DNA of 64,000 nucleotides from Planctomycetota bacterium (GTDB lineage: Bacteria > Planctomycetota > UBA1135 > GCA-002686595). Below, piece after piece: positions 13,842-22,315 of the stretch. Positions within the stretch are counted from its first letter, which is position 1. Each line of letters begins with the position of its first letter. The notes under the pieces are model-generated. The model searched no databases. It worked only from the letters and a program-made list of their open reading frames with translations, and was not told the DNA's origin. The translations under genes were made by a program, and so were the position numbers. Location of the stretch: NCBI GenBank assembly GCA_029259595.1, contig JAJDEW010000101.1, positions 1 to 64,000 on the forward strand, given 5' to 3'.

Positions 13842-14690
13842 TCAGACGGGCGAGCGGTGGCGGCGGGAGGGCGGCAGACCCCCGGAAACGCGTCCGGTGA
13901 AGAGAAAGGCCCCTTCGATCCGCCAACCCGGGCGTGGAACCTCGAAGCCCGCTGCCGCCAGGTGCCAGCGGCTGACGAAGAGCTCGAGCGGGCGTCCCGG
14001 CGCGTCGGTCTCGAGGACTTCGATCGGATGGCCGCTCACGCCGTTCTCGAGGTGACGCACGCGTTGCACCCGCAGGGAGAGCTCCATGCAACCCCCCGGA
14101 CGCTCGTCGTCCCCGAGCGGAAGCAGCCGCGCGCCGTGGGGCTCTTCCAGGATGTAGGGGTCGTGCACCCCCGTGTTCGGCCCGACGTAGGTGATGTCGA
14201 GCGAAAACCCCGCGATCGAGACGGCCAGGACGTGATCCGACGACAGGCTGCGCGGCAGCTTGCGTGCATCCGTGAGGTAGGTGGCGAGCGGATAGTCCTC
14301 GCGCTCGGCCTCGGACTCGAGCGAGCCGTCCAGGTGCGGGACGGGCGGATTCGCGATCCCGTACAGGAGCGCGTCGAAGGGCGAGTCGGGGACCCCGACG
14401 ACGCTCTTGACCGCCACGCGCAGGCGCCGCTCGGTCGCGAAGTGGGGCCAGAGCGACGGACAGGGCTCGCCCTCGTCGCGGTCGAGGCGAACGTCCACGC
14501 CGGGCGCGACCGCCAGGCGCAGGTGCTCGCCCTCCGGGCCGCGCCAGGCGACGGGCTCCCCCTCGGACCGGATCTGCCGCGCGAGGGCGTCGAGGTCCGC
14601 TTGGGGCGAGAAGCCGATGCTTTCGAGCAGGAAATCCAAAGGGAGTCCACGGCCGCGGAGCATCCGCAGAGGGAGTGCCGCGACGCGCAT
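13842..14690 (-). CDS. Conserved-looking protein of unknown function
   Basis: I do not recognise this 282-aa protein. It has no signal peptide or membrane span and is rich in acidic and hydrophobic residues with balanced composition, unlike the shadow frames. Features worth noting are the motifs VPHLDGSL, YVGPNTGVHDPYIL and ELFVSRWHLAAAGFEVPRPGW, the last with several aromatic residues. It is transcribed divergently from the M1 peptidase gene with 68 bp between starts, and ends 140 bp before the AGCS symporter start on the same strand. An enzyme acting on a small polar substrate is possible but not supported. Confidence 0.6.
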   Translation of the reverse strand: MRVAALPLRMLRGRGLPLDFLLESIGFSPQADLDALARQIRSEGEPVAWRGPEGEHLRLAVAPGVDVRLDRDEGEPCPSLWPHFATERRLRVAVKSVVGVPDSPFDALLYGIANPPVPHLDGSLESEAEREDYPLATYLTDARKLPRSLSSDHVLAVSIAGFSLDITYVGPNTGVHDPYILEEPHGARLLPLGDDERPGGCMELSLRVQRVRHLENGVSGHPIEVLETDAPGRPLELFVSRWHLAAAGFEVPRPGWRIEGAFLFTGRVSGGLPPSRRHRSPV

Positions 14691-14708
14691 CTTCCCATAT
14701 CGCCCCGC

Positions 14709-14737
14709 GTGAGTCGTCCGCTTCCATTCGGTACGAT
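14709..14737 (+). promoter_or_regulatory. Possible promoter of the M1 peptidase gene
   Basis: GTGAGT at 14709-14714 and TACGAT at 14732-14737 are separated by 17 bp. The -10 element matches four of six consensus bases. The ATG follows 21 bp later. Confidence 0.35.
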
Positions 14738-14758
14738 CCGGCTTTCCGCACCCCTACG

Positions 14759-17281
14759 ATGAAAACCACCATGGCGCGACGGACGAAAGTGCTCCCCTCC
14801 GGCTTCTGCACCCTCCTCTTCGGATCCCTTCTGTGGACCGCTTGTCAGAGCCAACCGGCGGATGGGCGCGCCGGTCGCCCGGCCCGCGAGGGGAGCGCCC
14901 GCAGGGCCGATCCGGCGGCTGTCCGGGGCTTCGACGTGGAGCATCTCGCGATCGACGTGGCGCTCTTGCCCGAGTCGCGCGCGATCGAGGGGCTGACGCG
15001 GATTCGCCTGGCGTCGGCGCGGCCGGACCTCGCCGAGATCGCGCTGGACCTGCAGGGCCTCACGGTCCGCTCGGTGCGTGACGTCCGCGCGGGCGAGCTC
15101 GCCTGGGAGCACGAGGACGAGCTCCTGCGCGTCAGGCTCGACGGCCCGCTCGATCCCGGCGAGCTGGTCGAGCTCGAGGTGCGCTACGACGGCATGCCGC
15201 GGACCGGCCTGCACTTCTCGGGCCTGCGTTCGGACGGCTCGGGCCCGACCCAGGTCTTCTCCCAGGGTGCTCCGCAGGAGAACAGCGGTTGGTTCCCGTG
15301 CGTCGACCGGCCCTACGACCGTGCGACGTCCGAGGTCCGCGTCACGATGCCCGAGCGCTGGGTCTCGTTCGCGCCAGGCGTGAAGATCGATTCGTACGTG
15401 GGCGAAGGGACCCGCACCGAACACTGGCAGATGGACTTCGCCCACCCGAGCTACCTGGTCAGCCTGGTGGCCGGCGAGTTCGTCGTGAAGAACGGAGAGT
15501 GGGACGGCGTGCCGCTCGTCTTCGCGGCCGAGCCGCAGTACGAGTCCATGATGGACGCGACCTTCGAGGAGACCGACGAAGTGCTCGCCTTCTTCTCGGA
15601 CTACACGGGCGTGCGCTATCCCTACGCCAAGTACAGCCAGGTCGCCGTCGCCAACTTCATGTGGGGCGGCATGGAGAACATCTCCGCGACGACCCTGACG
15701 CCCTTGACCTTCGACGACGCGCGCGGTCGCCGCGACGCTCAGAGCCACGGGCTCGTCGCTCACGAGGCGGCGCACCAGTGGTTCGGAGACCTTCTGACCT
15801 GCGAGGATTGGTCCCACGTGTGGTTGAACGAGGGCTTCGCGACGTACATGACCGAGCTCTACTTCGAGGCAACGCGCGGACGCGACGTCTTCCGAGCTCG
15901 CATGCGCGACCTGCAGGACGAGTACCTGAAGATGGACCGGGGCGGCAAGCGTCAGGCGGTCGTCAGCGGGGCCTACCGCGACCCCTCCGACCTGTTCGAC
16001 GAGCAGGTCTACCAGGGTGGAGCGGCTCGTCTGCACTACCTGCGCTTCCTGGTCGGGGACGACGCCTTCCGGGCCGGAGTGCGCACGTACGTGGCCGAGA
16101 ACGCAGGGCAGAGCGTCACGACCGCGACGTTCCAGGAGGCGATGGAAAAGGTCACGGGCGAGGACCTGGACTGGTTCTTCGAGCAGTGGTTCCGCTCCGC
16201 CGGCTACCCCGAGTTCACCCTCGCCTGGAACTACGACGAGAAGCGCGACGCCATCCGGCTCGACGTGCGCCAAACGCAAGCGAGCGGTCGTGGCACCCCG
16301 TCCGTGTTCCGCGTGCCCGTGGACGTCGAGATCAGCGACGCGAGCGGGACGAGCTTGCACCGGCTCGTGGTCGACGAGCGGCGTCAGCGCTTCGACCTGC
16401 CGGGCAATGGCAAGCCCTTCTACGTGCGCTTCGACAAGGGCGGCTACGTGCCGAAGGTCGTCCAGTGGTCGAAGGCCCCCGCGGAGTGGCTCGCGATCGC
16501 CAACAGCGACGACGACGTGAACGGTCGGCGCGATGCCGTGCGCGCCCTGGGCGAGCTGGGGCGCGAGGCGCGGCTGCCCAACCCCGAAGCGCGCGAGACC
16601 TACGTCGCGGAGCTCTCGAACCTGTTGAAGTCCGACCCGAGCCCCTGGGTGCGAGCCGAGGCGGCCGAGGCGCTCGGACGCGCGGGTGGACTCGAAGCCC
16701 GCGAGCGCATGAAGTTTGCCGCGCGCAACGATCCCGAGGCCCGGGTGCGGGCGGCCTCGCTGCGCGGACTGGCGACCTTCGGAACCGAGCGGGAGATGAT
16801 CGAATTCGCCGACGCGGTCTTCGCCGAGGGCTTCAGCTACGAGACGATGGTCGCGGCCGCCGCGCTCCGGTGCGCGAGCGCACCCGAACAAGCCTACGCC
16901 TACCTGACGCAGAAGCTCTTCGTCACGTCACCGCACGACGAGCTCTGCCGACTGCTCTTGATCGAGCTCGGCCGGCTGGACCATCCGGCGGTGGGGGACC
17001 AACTCCTGCGCTGGTCGCGAGACTCGTCTCTTTCCGGTCCGGCGCGCGGCGAAGCCCTGCGTCAGTTGGCCCAGCAGAACACGAACCGTCCGCGCAACGC
17101 GCGGGTCATCGCCGAGCACCTCGCGTCCGACGATTTCCGCCTGCGCAAGGCGGCGGTCGAGGCCTTGGTCGAGATGGGCGACAACACCGCCCGCAAGGCG
17201 CTCGAGGCCTACTACGAAGGCACGGCGAGCGAGCGCGAGAAGCGCATCATCGAAGGTTCGATGCGTCCGCGCTTTCCCTGA
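14759..17281 (+). CDS. M1-family metallo-aminopeptidase lipoprotein with C-terminal HEAT repeats
   Basis: Zinc aminopeptidase predicted to be exported and lipid-anchored (signal peptide ending in the lipobox W-T-A-C). The 840-aa protein has the M1 beta-saddle domain, then the GGMEN-type motif WGGMENIS, then HEAAHQWFG with H335, E336 and H339, and the third ligand E358 in NEGFATYM, exactly 18 residues on. After about residue 590 the ERAP-type domain is replaced by HEAT-like helical repeats (EARLPN, DPSPWVRAEAAEALG, DPEARVRAASLRGL, DDFRLRKAAVEALVEMGD). The ATG at 14759 was chosen for the signal peptide. An ATG at 14771 is possible. It may be co-transcribed with the selenoprotein candidate 24 bp downstream. 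Confidence 0.92.
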   Translation: MKTTMARRTKVLPSGFCTLLFGSLLWTACQSQPADGRAGRPAREGSARRADPAAVRGFDVEHLAIDVALLPESRAIEGLTRIRLASARPDLAEIALDLQGLTVRSVRDVRAGELAWEHEDELLRVRLDGPLDPGELVELEVRYDGMPRTGLHFSGLRSDGSGPTQVFSQGAPQENSGWFPCVDRPYDRATSEVRVTMPERWVSFAPGVKIDSYVGEGTRTEHWQMDFAHPSYLVSLVAGEFVVKNGEWDGVPLVFAAEPQYESMMDATFEETDEVLAFFSDYTGVRYPYAKYSQVAVANFMWGGMENISATTLTPLTFDDARGRRDAQSHGLVAHEAAHQWFGDLLTCEDWSHVWLNEGFATYMTELYFEATRGRDVFRARMRDLQDEYLKMDRGGKRQAVVSGAYRDPSDLFDEQVYQGGAARLHYLRFLVGDDAFRAGVRTYVAENAGQSVTTATFQEAMEKVTGEDLDWFFEQWFRSAGYPEFTLAWNYDEKRDAIRLDVRQTQASGRGTPSVFRVPVDVEISDASGTSLHRLVVDERRQRFDLPGNGKPFYVRFDKGGYVPKVVQWSKAPAEWLAIANSDDDVNGRRDAVRALGELGREARLPNPEARETYVAELSNLLKSDPSPWVRAEAAEALGRAGGLEARERMKFAARNDPEARVRAASLRGLATFGTEREMIEFADAVFAEGFSYETMVAAAALRCASAPEQAYAYLTQKLFVTSPHDELCRLLLIELGRLDHPAVGDQLLRWSRDSSLSGPARGEALRQLAQQNTNRPRNARVIAEHLASDDFRLRKAAVEALVEMGDNTARKALEAYYEGTASEREKRIIEGSMRPRFP

Positions 17282-17305: not shown

Positions 17306-17878
17306 ATGGGATGGATCCGCACGATCGCACCGGACGAGGCCACGGGCCTCGCGAAGGCAGTCTATGACGCCGCGCTACGGCGGGCCGGCCGGGTCTTCCA
17401 GATCGTGCGTTGGATGAGCCTCGCTCCCCGCGTCATGGAAGCGTCGATGGAGCTCTACAAGCGCGTGATGTTCGAGCGCGGGGGTCTGCAGCGCTACCAG
17501 CGCGAGCTCCTGGCCGTCGTGGTCAGTCGAACGAACGGCTGCCACTACTGAACCGAAGCTCACAAGGCGGACCTCCGGGCCGAGGTGCGCAGGCCGCAAC
17601 GCGAAGGGCTCGAGGACTGGCTCGCTGCGGTCGCTACGGACTGGACGAAGGCCGAGCTCGAGCCCGAGGACCGCGCCCTCTGCGCCTACGCCCAAAAACT
17701 CACGCTCACCCCGACAGCGATGCAAGCGGACGACGTCGAGGACCTGCGCGCGGCCGGCTTCGACGACACGGCCGTGCACGACGCGATCCAGGTCATCGCG
17801 TACTTCAACTACATCAACCGCGTGGCCGACGCCGTGCACGTGGACCTCGAACCCGAGATGCCGGCCTACCCGGGCTGA
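17306..17878 (+). CDS. AhpD-like peroxidase-related selenoprotein candidate (in-frame TGA)
   Basis: Two open frames, 17306-17548 and 17552-17878, are the same frame joined by one TGA at 17549-17551. Read through, they give a 190-residue protein matching the whole length of the carboxymuconolactone decarboxylase/AhpD-like peroxidase-related family. The TGA falls at residue 82 in CHY-U-TEAH, exactly where the family has the second Cys of its CxxCxxxH redox site. The first Cys (79) and the His (86) are intact. In AhpD the second Cys is the reactive one, the place where selenocysteine would matter. The C-terminal half keeps family-like sequence (AQKLTLTPTAM, ADDVEDLRAAGF, YFNYINRVADAV), arguing against decay. 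RBS GAGG lies 7 nt before the ATG. A nonsense mutation or sequencing error remains possible. SelA/B/C genes are not in this window. Confidence 0.82.
17567..17590 (+). promoter_or_regulatory. SECIS-like hairpin just after the in-frame TGA
   Basis: Downstream of TGA (17549-17551) the RNA can form a stem of GCG/CGC (17567-17569 with 17588-17590), one G-G mismatch, then ACCTC/GAGGT (17571-17575 with 17582-17586), closing a six-base loop CGGGCC. The loop starts 24 nt after the TGA and has G at its second base, which fits the published general description of bacterial SECIS elements. GC-rich DNA forms such stems often by chance, so this supports but does not prove recoding. Confidence 0.5.
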
Positions 17879-17893: not shown

Positions 17894-20479
17894 TCACGGC
17901 TGCGAGAGCGTGACGAAGCGGTCGATGCCGCCGAGCTCGGTGCCTGCGTGCGAGCTCCGGGAACCGTCGGGCCAGCGCACGCGAACTTCCGTCACCGCCG
18001 TGGCCGGGCCGATTCCGAACGAGAGCTCGGGGGCGTTGCCGCCCAGGTAGCCCGTGCCGGCCCGCAGCTCACGCCGCTGGGAACCGTGTGGGGTCACGAG
18101 CTCGACCAGCGCGCCGATCGCCTGCGTGTTGCCTCCCCGACCGCGCAGACGCACGCCGAGCCAATGTCCCCGGTCGCGTGCGGTGTTGTGCAGGAGCTGA
18201 ACGGGGCCGTTGTTGGCGGTCACGACGAGATCCACACCTCCGTCCTGGTCGTAGTCGCAGGCGATCACGCAGCGGGAGGCCAGCTGCACCGCGAGAGCCG
18301 GACCGGCGGAGGCGCTGGCCTCGGTGAAGCGCCCCTTGCCGTCGTTCTCGAACCAGTGGTTGGGTTGGCCGATGCAGATCCCGGTCGATTCGTAATCGGG
18401 GCTCGTGTAGCCGTTGGCGACGAAGGCGTCCAGGTCGCCGTCATTGTCGGCGTCGAAGAGCTCGACCCCCCAGGAGGTGAACCCGATGCCCCAGGGGCCG
18501 AGGCCGGCGGTGACCGTGATGTCGCGGAAGGTGGCGACGCGGTGGCGACGGCTGGACTGCGAGACCACGTTGTTGCGGTAGATGGCGTTGGCCTCGAGCT
18601 CCCAGTTCGTCAGGAAGAGGTCGAAGTCGCCGTCGCCCTCGATGTCGCCGACCGCCACACCCATGCCGCCGCGCGGATCGTCCATGCCCGTCGCGAAGGA
18701 GACGTCGCGAAACGTGCCGTCACCTTCGTTGCGGAAGAGCACGTTGTACGACACGTCGTTCGCGACGTAGAGGTCCTGATCCCCGTCGTCGTCGAAGTCC
18801 CAGAACACCGCCTGCATGCCGCGGCCGAGTTCGTCGGCGAGTCCGAGCGCCTCCGTGGCGTCCTCGAAGCGCGGGTGCCCGTCGCCGCTGGACGTGACGT
18901 TGCGCAGGTAGACGTTGCGCTGACCCGGGAAGGCGAAGGGGAGCATCTCGATGGGATCCTCGCGCTGGTAGCGGCCGAGTTCGTTCGCCGCGGGCATCTT
19001 TTCGAGGTCGTAGTCGAGGTAGCTCGTGACGTACACGTCGAGGTCGCCGTCGACGTCGGGGTCGGCTGCGACCACCGAGGCGCTCCAGAGCTCGTGTTTC
19101 AAGCCGGCGGCAGCGCTCACGTCCTCGAAGCCACCGCGCCCATCGTTGGCCAGCAGCGTGTCGCGCCCGTAGTTCGCGACGTACAGGTCGAGGTCGCCGT
19201 CCCCGTCGCCGTCGAAGAAGAGCGCGCCCATGCCTGCACCGGTGTCGCCGGCGCCGCTCTTCGCCGTGACGTCCACGAAGGTCTCGCGTCGGTTCAAGTA
19301 GAGCCGGTTGGCGAGCGGCGTGCACTCTGGACGCGCACCCCCCTGCACGAGATACAGGTCCACCAATCCATCGCCGTCGGCGTCGCCCCAGGCCGCGCCC
19401 GGGCCCATCGTCGGGCGGATGTCGAGCTGCTCGTCGGGGCCCTCGAAGTGGACCATCCCCAGGGCATCGGCGACGTCGGTGAACAGGGGTCGCACCGGCA
19501 GACGCGAGCGGCCCCGGCGCGGGGGTTCCGGCTGTTCGAGCGCGCTCGCCTCGATCATGAGGACGACGCTGCCCGTCGCCTCCGTCTCCGGCGGAGCCTC
19601 GAACCACAGTTCGAGCAACGTGTCGGGCGTCAGCTCGAGGGCCGCGTCGGAGCCGTCGGGAAAGGTGAGCTCGGCCGGATCGCGAACGTCGGCGAGCGGG
19701 GCGCCGCGCACCGGGCCGCGCCCGTGGCGCTGTGTTTCGACGCGGCGCGCGATCGAGCGACGCAGGGCCGCGCGTGGGCGCAGCTCGACGTGGACTTCGT
19801 TCGTGGACAGGAGCTCGACCGAGCGCAGGGCGGCAGCGTCGAGCCAGGCCTCCGCCGCCGTCGTCTCGAGGCGCAGGCCGCGGCGCCCTGCCGCGGCGAC
19901 GTCGAGGATCGTGGCTTGGCCCTGCTCCGAGCGCAGCGTCGCCTTCGTCGTCGCCCCGTCGGCTGTACGCACGACGAGCTCCCAGGGGCGGGCCACGTCG
20001 GTCTCGGCGCCGAAGAGGACCAGCCGCGCTCCGCTCGGGAGCGCCTCGGGCAGTTCGAAGGCGAGGCCCGGCCCCGCGATGGCGACGCCATCGAGGCGCG
20101 CGATGCGGTCGGTCACGTTGCCACCGACCGGTGCGAGAACGTGTTTGGGAAGGAGCGGCGGGCCGACGCGGACGAGTTCCCCGTTCGCGGCCAGAACCAG
20201 CTCGTCGGTGGCGTGGGGGACGAAGACCGCGCGCACGCGATCGATCCGAAGGTGGCTCTCGGGAGCGTCGAGCCGGACGGCGACGCCATCCACTCCCGGC
20301 GAGATCCGGACGACGCGTTCGGAGCGTGTGGTCAACGGAAGGACGAAGGTCGCCGGGAAATCCGTCGTGCAACCGACCGGGATGAAGGCGTCGCCTTCCT
20401 GGCTCGAGAGCTGGAGTCGCGGCGATTCCGACGTCCCTCCAGCGGGGAGCGCGAGAAGCAGGGCCAGAAGGGTGAACAT
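17894..20479 (-). CDS. Secreted FG-GAP/VCBS repeat protein with ASPIC/UnbV C-terminal domain
   Basis: The 861-aa protein has a short signal peptide (MFTLLALLLALPAGG), about 300 residues of beta-rich sequence, then at least seven Ca-binding FG-GAP/VCBS-type blades. Examples are GDADGDGLVDLYLVQ, DGDGDGDLDLYVANYG, DFDDDGDQDLYVAND and DADNDGDLDAFVANGY. It ends in an ASPIC/UnbV (CRTAC1-type) domain: GHWLGVRLRG, IGALVELVTPHG, VRVRWPDGS. Such proteins fold as secreted beta-propellers, and many are abundant in planctomycetes. The molecular role is not established. It converges with the selenoprotein candidate, 15 bp between stops, and has its own promoter-like sequence upstream. Confidence 0.9.
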   Translation of the reverse strand: MFTLLALLLALPAGGTSESPRLQLSSQEGDAFIPVGCTTDFPATFVLPLTTRSERVVRISPGVDGVAVRLDAPESHLRIDRVRAVFVPHATDELVLAANGELVRVGPPLLPKHVLAPVGGNVTDRIARLDGVAIAGPGLAFELPEALPSGARLVLFGAETDVARPWELVVRTADGATTKATLRSEQGQATILDVAAAGRRGLRLETTAAEAWLDAAALRSVELLSTNEVHVELRPRAALRRSIARRVETQRHGRGPVRGAPLADVRDPAELTFPDGSDAALELTPDTLLELWFEAPPETEATGSVVLMIEASALEQPEPPRRGRSRLPVRPLFTDVADALGMVHFEGPDEQLDIRPTMGPGAAWGDADGDGLVDLYLVQGGARPECTPLANRLYLNRRETFVDVTAKSGAGDTGAGMGALFFDGDGDGDLDLYVANYGRDTLLANDGRGGFEDVSAAAGLKHELWSASVVAADPDVDGDLDVYVTSYLDYDLEKMPAANELGRYQREDPIEMLPFAFPGQRNVYLRNVTSSGDGHPRFEDATEALGLADELGRGMQAVFWDFDDDGDQDLYVANDVSYNVLFRNEGDGTFRDVSFATGMDDPRGGMGVAVGDIEGDGDFDLFLTNWELEANAIYRNNVVSQSSRRHRVATFRDITVTAGLGPWGIGFTSWGVELFDADNDGDLDAFVANGYTSPDYESTGICIGQPNHWFENDGKGRFTEASASAGPALAVQLASRCVIACDYDQDGGVDLVVTANNGPVQLLHNTARDRGHWLGVRLRGRGGNTQAIGALVELVTPHGSQRRELRAGTGYLGGNAPELSFGIGPATAVTEVRVRWPDGSRSSHAGTELGGIDRFVTLSQP

Positions 20480-21888: not shown

Positions 21889-21954
21889 CTGGAGCTGGGC
21901 CAGGGCCGCACTGTGCTGCGCGACGCGGGGTCGTCCGAGCTGGGGCGGTGAAGT

Positions 21955-22315
<361 letters not shown>

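Follow-up and report, generated by a model that had tools for sequence, protein, structure and literature searches.

Selenoproteins of the AhpD-like type, bearing a CxxU motif, were described in surveys of marine metagenomes. According to the sections of these papers that were available, 27 such sequences came from the Sargasso Sea, in a study that also reported SECIS-like stem-loops past the UGA of its new selenoproteins (PMC1088965), and the GOS survey gave two groups, of 299 and 70 sequences (PMC2398784). An earlier, sequence-only reading of the DNA considered here had mentioned AhpD-like selenoproteins from marine surveys, and this statement is correct (PMC1088965, PMC2398784). A table in a 2026 review, likewise available in part, lists an AhpD-like protein, assigned to TIGR01926, with the CxxU motif and an example accession (PMC13188914). 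Since CxxU selenoproteins of TIGR01926 are already in print in these sources, the gene discussed below should be regarded as a further member and not as a new family. Our literature search, which was of partial coverage, found no paper naming an AhpD selenoprotein gene in planctomycetes, and in the main text of a planctomycete selenoprotein paper, to the extent available, the terms AhpD and alkylhydroperoxidase are absent (PMC4807772). For PA0269, a relative with the same active-site spacing, weak reduction of H2O2 is described in the accessible part of the report (PMC3141380).

The gene lies in what we call the window, i.e. the whole stretch of 64,000 nucleotides of planctomycete DNA that was analysed. 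On the forward strand (17306-17878), a frame of 190 codons starts with an ATG at 17306, stops at a TGA at 17876-17878, and is interrupted once, by a TGA at 17549-17551. The latter falls in the context CHY-TGA-TEAH, at the second residue of the CxxC motif; it is kept in aligned relatives and is predicted to be read as selenocysteine (Sec), residue 82 of a 190-aa protein. A listing of open reading frames by the standard code splits the locus into an 81-aa piece and a 97-aa piece starting at GTG. With Cys put at the TGA, the joined protein matches the peroxidase-related NCBIfam model TIGR01926 with 142.2 bits (cut-off 81.8; residues 3-183) and Pfam CMD with 45.4 bits (cut-off 23), and it fails the model of AhpD proper, TIGR00777 (27.8 vs 191.95 bits). 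When scored separately against TIGR01926, the halves align with the expected parts of the model and give 46.5 and 78.9 bits; as both values are below the cut-off, annotation pipelines will probably split the gene or overlook it. Thus, two claims of the sequence-only reading, namely that two same-frame ORFs are joined by one TGA in CHY-TGA-TEAH to give 190 aa, and that the sequence is family-like on both sides of this codon, are borne out by the sequence itself and by the model matches of the halves, respectively, the latter together with the similar pN/pS values given below. The score above the TIGR01926 cut-off, the spacing of Glu, CxxU and His, and a predicted all-helical AhpD-like fold place the protein in the AhpD-like TIGR01926 family, and we consider it very probable that the gene encodes a complete, Sec-containing member of it.

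The AlphaFold2 model, built from the window protein and 52 relatives, is all-helical (pLDDT 94.1), and its best match in the PDB is 6k40, an AhpD (TM 0.85, 37% identity), which is also the best match by sequence (E 1.3e-27). The residues of the putative proton relay, Glu67, Cys79, Tyr81, Sec82 and His86 (codons within 17504-17563, forward strand), are unvaried in all 51 rows of alignment A1, and their spacing equals that of Glu36, Cys48, Tyr50, Cys51 and His55 of PA0269; the Tyr position varies in more distant Sec homologues, e.g. L092 and L093. In AhpD it is the second Cys of the pair that attacks. In the mechanism which we propose for the window protein, Cys79-His-Tyr-Sec82 would be placed in the AhpD core of two helices, where Glu67, Tyr81 and His86 would serve as the proton relay. 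The selenolate of Sec82 would attack a peroxide or a disulfide and Cys79 would resolve the product as a selenenylsulfide, after which the enzyme would be regenerated by a thiol system of the cell. Such Sec-based peroxide or disulfide chemistry appears to us the probable function of this protein.

The neighbourhood of the gene bears on the question of substrate. An ORF for an M1 peptidase with HEAT repeats (14675-17281, forward strand; Pfam PF01433, PF13646) ends 24 nt upstream and may possibly be its operon partner. In the window gene's group, 32 of 103 distinct contexts have a homologue of this M1 peptidase upstream and in the same orientation, vs 0 of 30 other homologues, the flanks of the latter being mostly of about 500 bases; when 500 bases were used for both, the counts were 13/103 and 0/30. 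This recurrent pairing suggests a possible functional link between the selenoprotein gene and the M1 peptidase. On the other side, the gene is adjoined by a minus-strand ORF for a protein with FG-GAP repeats and an ASPIC/UnbV domain (17894-20479), and RNase P RNA of class A (292.9 bits) is encoded further on, at 21954-22312 of the window, also on the minus strand. One could propose that neither peroxides nor disulfides of the thioredoxin type are the substrate, and that the enzyme acts, for example, as a peptide oxidoreductase tied to the M1 peptidase or as a reductive dehalogenase similar to Bmp8. Such a proposal would alter only the reaction assigned to the enzyme and leave the Sec reading intact. 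It would agree with the pairing just described, and also with the ability of the AhpD fold to host several chemistries, the model matching the debrominase Bmp8 with TM of 0.77-0.78. However, the enzyme most closely matches AhpD and peroxidase-related proteins, and it retains the proton relay at all five positions; hence another substrate is, in our opinion, possible but rather doubtful.

A different kind of objection would be that an AhpD-like gene was broken recently by a nonsense mutation, and by the standard code alone the locus does consist of two pieces. The distribution of the TGA codon among relatives makes a pseudogene most improbable. In the set used for the protein search, which comprised the window's own genome and 60 relatives (61 in total), a homologue was present in 54 genomes, and the best match contained the in-frame TGA in 54 of 54. 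Of the seven genomes in which no homologue was found, five have tRNA-Sec (G019, G029, G045, G046, G052), and in two (G023, G038) tRNA-Sec was not found either. Among the 82 loci fetched from this set, 74 have TGA three codons past the conserved Cys; the remaining 8, which are distant homologues, have Cys and no TGA. Alignment A1 shows TGA at this codon in 51 of 51 rows. In a scan of named genomes, TGA occupied the same codon in all 80 of the best 80 of 573 relatives; these were found by one peptide pattern derived from A1, an alignment of Sec forms exclusively, so Cys forms are under-sampled among them. The 80 named loci, the 51 rows of A1 and the 61-genome set overlap partly in genomes. Record titles of the best 80 name Planctomycetota, Chloroflexota, Acidobacteria, Gemmatimonadetes, Thermoleophilia (Actinomycetota), a Deltaproteobacterium and Zixiibacteriota, and since nearly all named loci are metagenome-assembled, a few of these phylum labels may be wrong. 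One of the TGA-containing homologues belongs to Planctomycetes bacterium Pla86, whose record is titled complete genome (CP036296.1, L179) and which we take to be a cultured strain. Because the TGA is conserved in 51/51 rows of A1 and in 80/80 named loci, overlapping as these samples are, chance is excluded.

No decay is seen beyond the TGA. For the 50 other rows of A1, the median pN/pS relative to the window gene was 0.56 before the TGA and 0.55 after it, these being rough ratios, since they are uncorrected proportions over large distances; pN was lower than pS after the TGA in 50 of 50 rows. Judged by these substitution patterns, the stretch after the TGA is constrained like the stretch before it, contrary to what a broken gene would require. 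In the alignment the in-frame UGA stands opposite a redox Cys of homologues, and the frame beyond it is conserved; the codon was TGA or Cys in the fetched loci examined, save one Leu. Hence, the alignment of homologues proposed in the sequence-only reading turned out in its favour: close relatives neither stop nor decay at this site, and the TGA is kept with the gene intact beyond it. In 54 genomes of the 61-genome set, what looks like a split gene is predicted to encode a complete selenoprotein.

A search across the phylum gave a match at 1e-30 in 137 of 392 genomes, and by hand count TGA was present in 142 (including the first 106) and lacking in 8 of the 150 rows listed. Four of the eight genomes with listed non-TGA rows are ones in which tRNA-Sec was not found (G077, G419, G374 and G303, completeness 79 to 95). 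The other four (G323, G327, G141 and G386) possess tRNA-Sec despite the non-TGA row, and G386 also has a Sec copy; Cys forms thus do occur in Sec-using genomes. The single Leu at the Sec position (L216) comes from G303, where tRNA-Sec was not found, and possibly reflects loss of the redox function. The genome G035 presents the converse case: it carries a TGA-containing gene (L047), yet tRNA-Sec was not found in it and its selA match is partial. The assembly is listed as 92% complete, and the missing tRNA-Sec is perhaps an assembly gap. Nevertheless, G035 counts against the Sec reading, as do those Sec-using genomes that have a Cys copy or no copy.

If the TGA is decoded as Sec, the appropriate machinery should be encoded in the same genome (6.07 Mb, 186 contigs). 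The sequence-only reading had proposed a search for selA, selB, selC and selD and had named a lack of selB or selC as evidence against itself; all four genes were found. tRNA-Sec scored 71.8 bits (cut-off 47), with the anticodon UCA according to ARAGORN, selB 303.2 bits, or 335.4 with an in-frame neighbour (cut-off 242.25), selA 430.8 bits, and selD 316.8 bits. The latter shares a contig with tRNA-Sec, at a distance of about 2.6 kb; neither selA nor selB lies on this contig. The selD gene itself (L018 1501-2442, G000:C113) is a predicted selenoprotein gene, with one in-frame TGA in the context CAG-TGA-AAKLPQG, which we take to be the usual Sec/Cys position of SelD. Among the 61 genomes (the window's own and the 60 relatives), tRNA-Sec matched above the cut-off in 58 and selA was present in 59. 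This complete set, comprising tRNA-Sec, SelA, SelB and SelD, also bears on the idea of a changed code, in which TGA would mean Trp or Gly, or of plain read-through of a stop without Sec. A single gene with TGA in a conserved frame would look alike in these cases. However, TGA serves as the stop of the gene and of the M1 peptidase ORF before it, and also of 67 of 131 homologous genes (a count that includes the window's own gene and some duplicates), and the internal TGA falls at the position where homologues have the redox Cys, so we find a changed code or simple read-through scarcely credible.

Decoding of UGA as Sec in bacteria depends on a SECIS hairpin located directly after this codon, with G in the first two bases of the loop and a suitable spacing. 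A predicted hairpin of this type, GCG-G-ACCUC-CGGGCC-GAGGU-G-CGC, occupies positions 17567-17590 of the forward strand, with stems of 3 bp and 5 bp around a G.G mismatch. Its apical loop, CGGGCC (17576-17581), starts 24 nt past the UGA, and reads CGTGCC in 43 of 107 distinct sequences. These 107 sequences, on which the following tests are based, remained after merging 24 of 131 that were identical over 48 bases. The six inner pairs are formed in 91.7% of cases vs a mean of 74.1% under synonymous randomisation, and none of 2000 randomisations reached the observed pairing. Synonymous shuffles within columns gave a mean of 89.5%, with 0 of 1000 as high as 91.7%. When the register was slid, pairing dropped to 26-51%. 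Cells changed on both sides numbered 18 vs 4.6 by shuffling, with 0 of 500 shuffles as high, although 16 of these 18 belong to one pair, which counts against the hairpin. Codon choice is also restricted: 104 of the 107 sequences have Arg in the loop and encode it by CGT or CGG, never by CGC, although CGC is the Arg codon used most often in these genes (1094 of 2091). The codon preceding that of the loop Arg is CTC in 101 of 107.

Folding predictions were less uniform. The hairpin appeared in the predicted fold of 78 of the 107 Sec genes and was absent from that of 29, vs 26 on average and 39 at most in 20 rounds of the synonymous null. It appeared in none of the 16 homologues without Sec when the same register was tested; one of these, L098, a homologue with Cys, has the potential for five pairs in this register, and its predicted fold lacks the hairpin. 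Among four pieces of the window that were folded, the 47-nt piece alone shows the hairpin and the other three favour other structures; the 45 nt past the TGA of the window gene also fold into it. The hairpin of the window gene is no more stable than shuffled sequences (z from -0.36 to 1.05), and RNAalifold, run on the 107-row alignment A2, returned no consensus structure, which counts against it. A bacterial SECIS directly past the UGA is thus indicated by the comparison of sequences, with the folds of single pieces of the window and RNAalifold as the adverse results. Direct pairing tests are more specific than RNAalifold and were given more weight, and in our opinion the comparative evidence that the hairpin is constrained beyond the protein sequence is strong. 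We propose that the ribosome would read the UGA at 17549-17551 as Sec, while the hairpin, which starts 15 nt past it, would recruit SelB with Sec-tRNA(UCA), the latter made with SelA and SelD; the same gene would then terminate at an ordinary UGA. The reading of this codon as Sec is strongly supported by gene structure, machinery genes, the conserved TGA, the constrained hairpin, the family and its predicted fold taken together, and the claim of the sequence-only reading that TGA stands for Sec in a CxxU enzyme gains in particular from the machinery, the conserved codon and the hairpin.

The genome of the window is a draft in 186 contigs, and a TGC or TGT could in principle be misread as TGA in it, but the same codon recurs across dozens of separate assemblies, including CP036296.1 (L179), which makes a sequencing or assembly error very unlikely, and it is accompanied by the conserved downstream hairpin, so that this explanation may be practically disregarded.

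The same genome contains a second AhpD-like gene with predicted Sec (L056 503-1051, G000:C168:30872-31423; CHYUITHHRRGL), which matches TIGR01926 with 121.4 bits. Its SECIS arrangement differs from that of the window gene, the loop being GGTCT, 18 nt after the UGA. A hairpin with a GGTCT or GGGCT loop 18 nt past the TGA is found in 16 of 18 rows of its group, L056 included, and L052 and L067 deviate from it. Several paralogue matches also contain TAG, which we considered as a second recoding and rejected, since it belongs to the C-terminal tail and resembles a stop in L051, L055 and L066; the aligned spans of L052, L053 and L054 end ahead of any TAG. TAG is present as well in rows G187:C161 and G101:C24 and in selA of G021. 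Rows that seemed to carry two TGA codons were likewise set aside, as L058, L217-L219 and L220 have one TGA in the aligned span and the second TGA of L057 is in the tail. Within the window there are 43 other TGA-interrupted frames with a nearby Cys, none of which, by eye, looks like a conserved redox site.

A tree was built from 153 rows (138 Sec and 15 Cys), with rows shorter than 140 residues, duplicates and those without the CxxC/CxxU...H pattern (L216) excluded. The Sec and Cys labels require four changes on it. One group, with support 89/92, consists of 115 Sec rows from seven phyla by record title and has no Cys row inside; the nearest Cys row, L210, is placed just outside it on a weak branch. 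Neither the direction of change nor the apparent lack of Cys reversions is firm, since the tree has many open forks, a warning of long branches was given by the program, and Sec forms were sampled preferentially. One may speculate that this is a Sec-locked branch, its codons held by the SECIS, linked in many planctomycetes to an M1 peptidase with HEAT repeats, and acting on a substrate for which Cys cannot substitute, in contrast to a Cys peroxidase in a freely exchangeable Sec form. We consider this rather unlikely, and the sampling bias towards Sec forms limits such a reading; still, the apparent lack of Cys forms inside the Sec branch is worth explaining.

Comparison with the systems described so far places the gene among the CxxU selenoproteins of TIGR01926, with which, in the table cited above, it shares both the model and the motif (PMC13188914). 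The marine surveys, in their available sections, dealt with metagenome sequences under COG2128 and pfam02627 (PMC1088965, PMC2398784), whereas the present gene is seen in a planctomycete genome with its context. The alkylhydroperoxidase-related (seleno)protein model NF041238, AhpD_rel_CFYUT, is homologous over residues 2-185 of the window protein, but has CFYUT where CHYUT is found here, and the window protein is not its member: it scores 78.8 vs 175 bits, and the 357-position model is matched from position 151 only. The best solved relative is 6k40, the AhpD of Deinococcus radiodurans R1, which presumably has Cys at the Sec position, as expected from the family pattern. Among the remaining structures, PA0269 chains match the model of the window protein with E between 7e-6 and 7e-5, and M. 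tuberculosis AhpD is a weak fold match (1gu9_L, TM 0.49, E 0.027). Both proteins, as presented in the accessible part of the PA0269 report, have the same relay spacing of E, C, Y or H, C and H as the window protein, and differ from it in having Cys at the position of the predicted Sec (PMC3141380).
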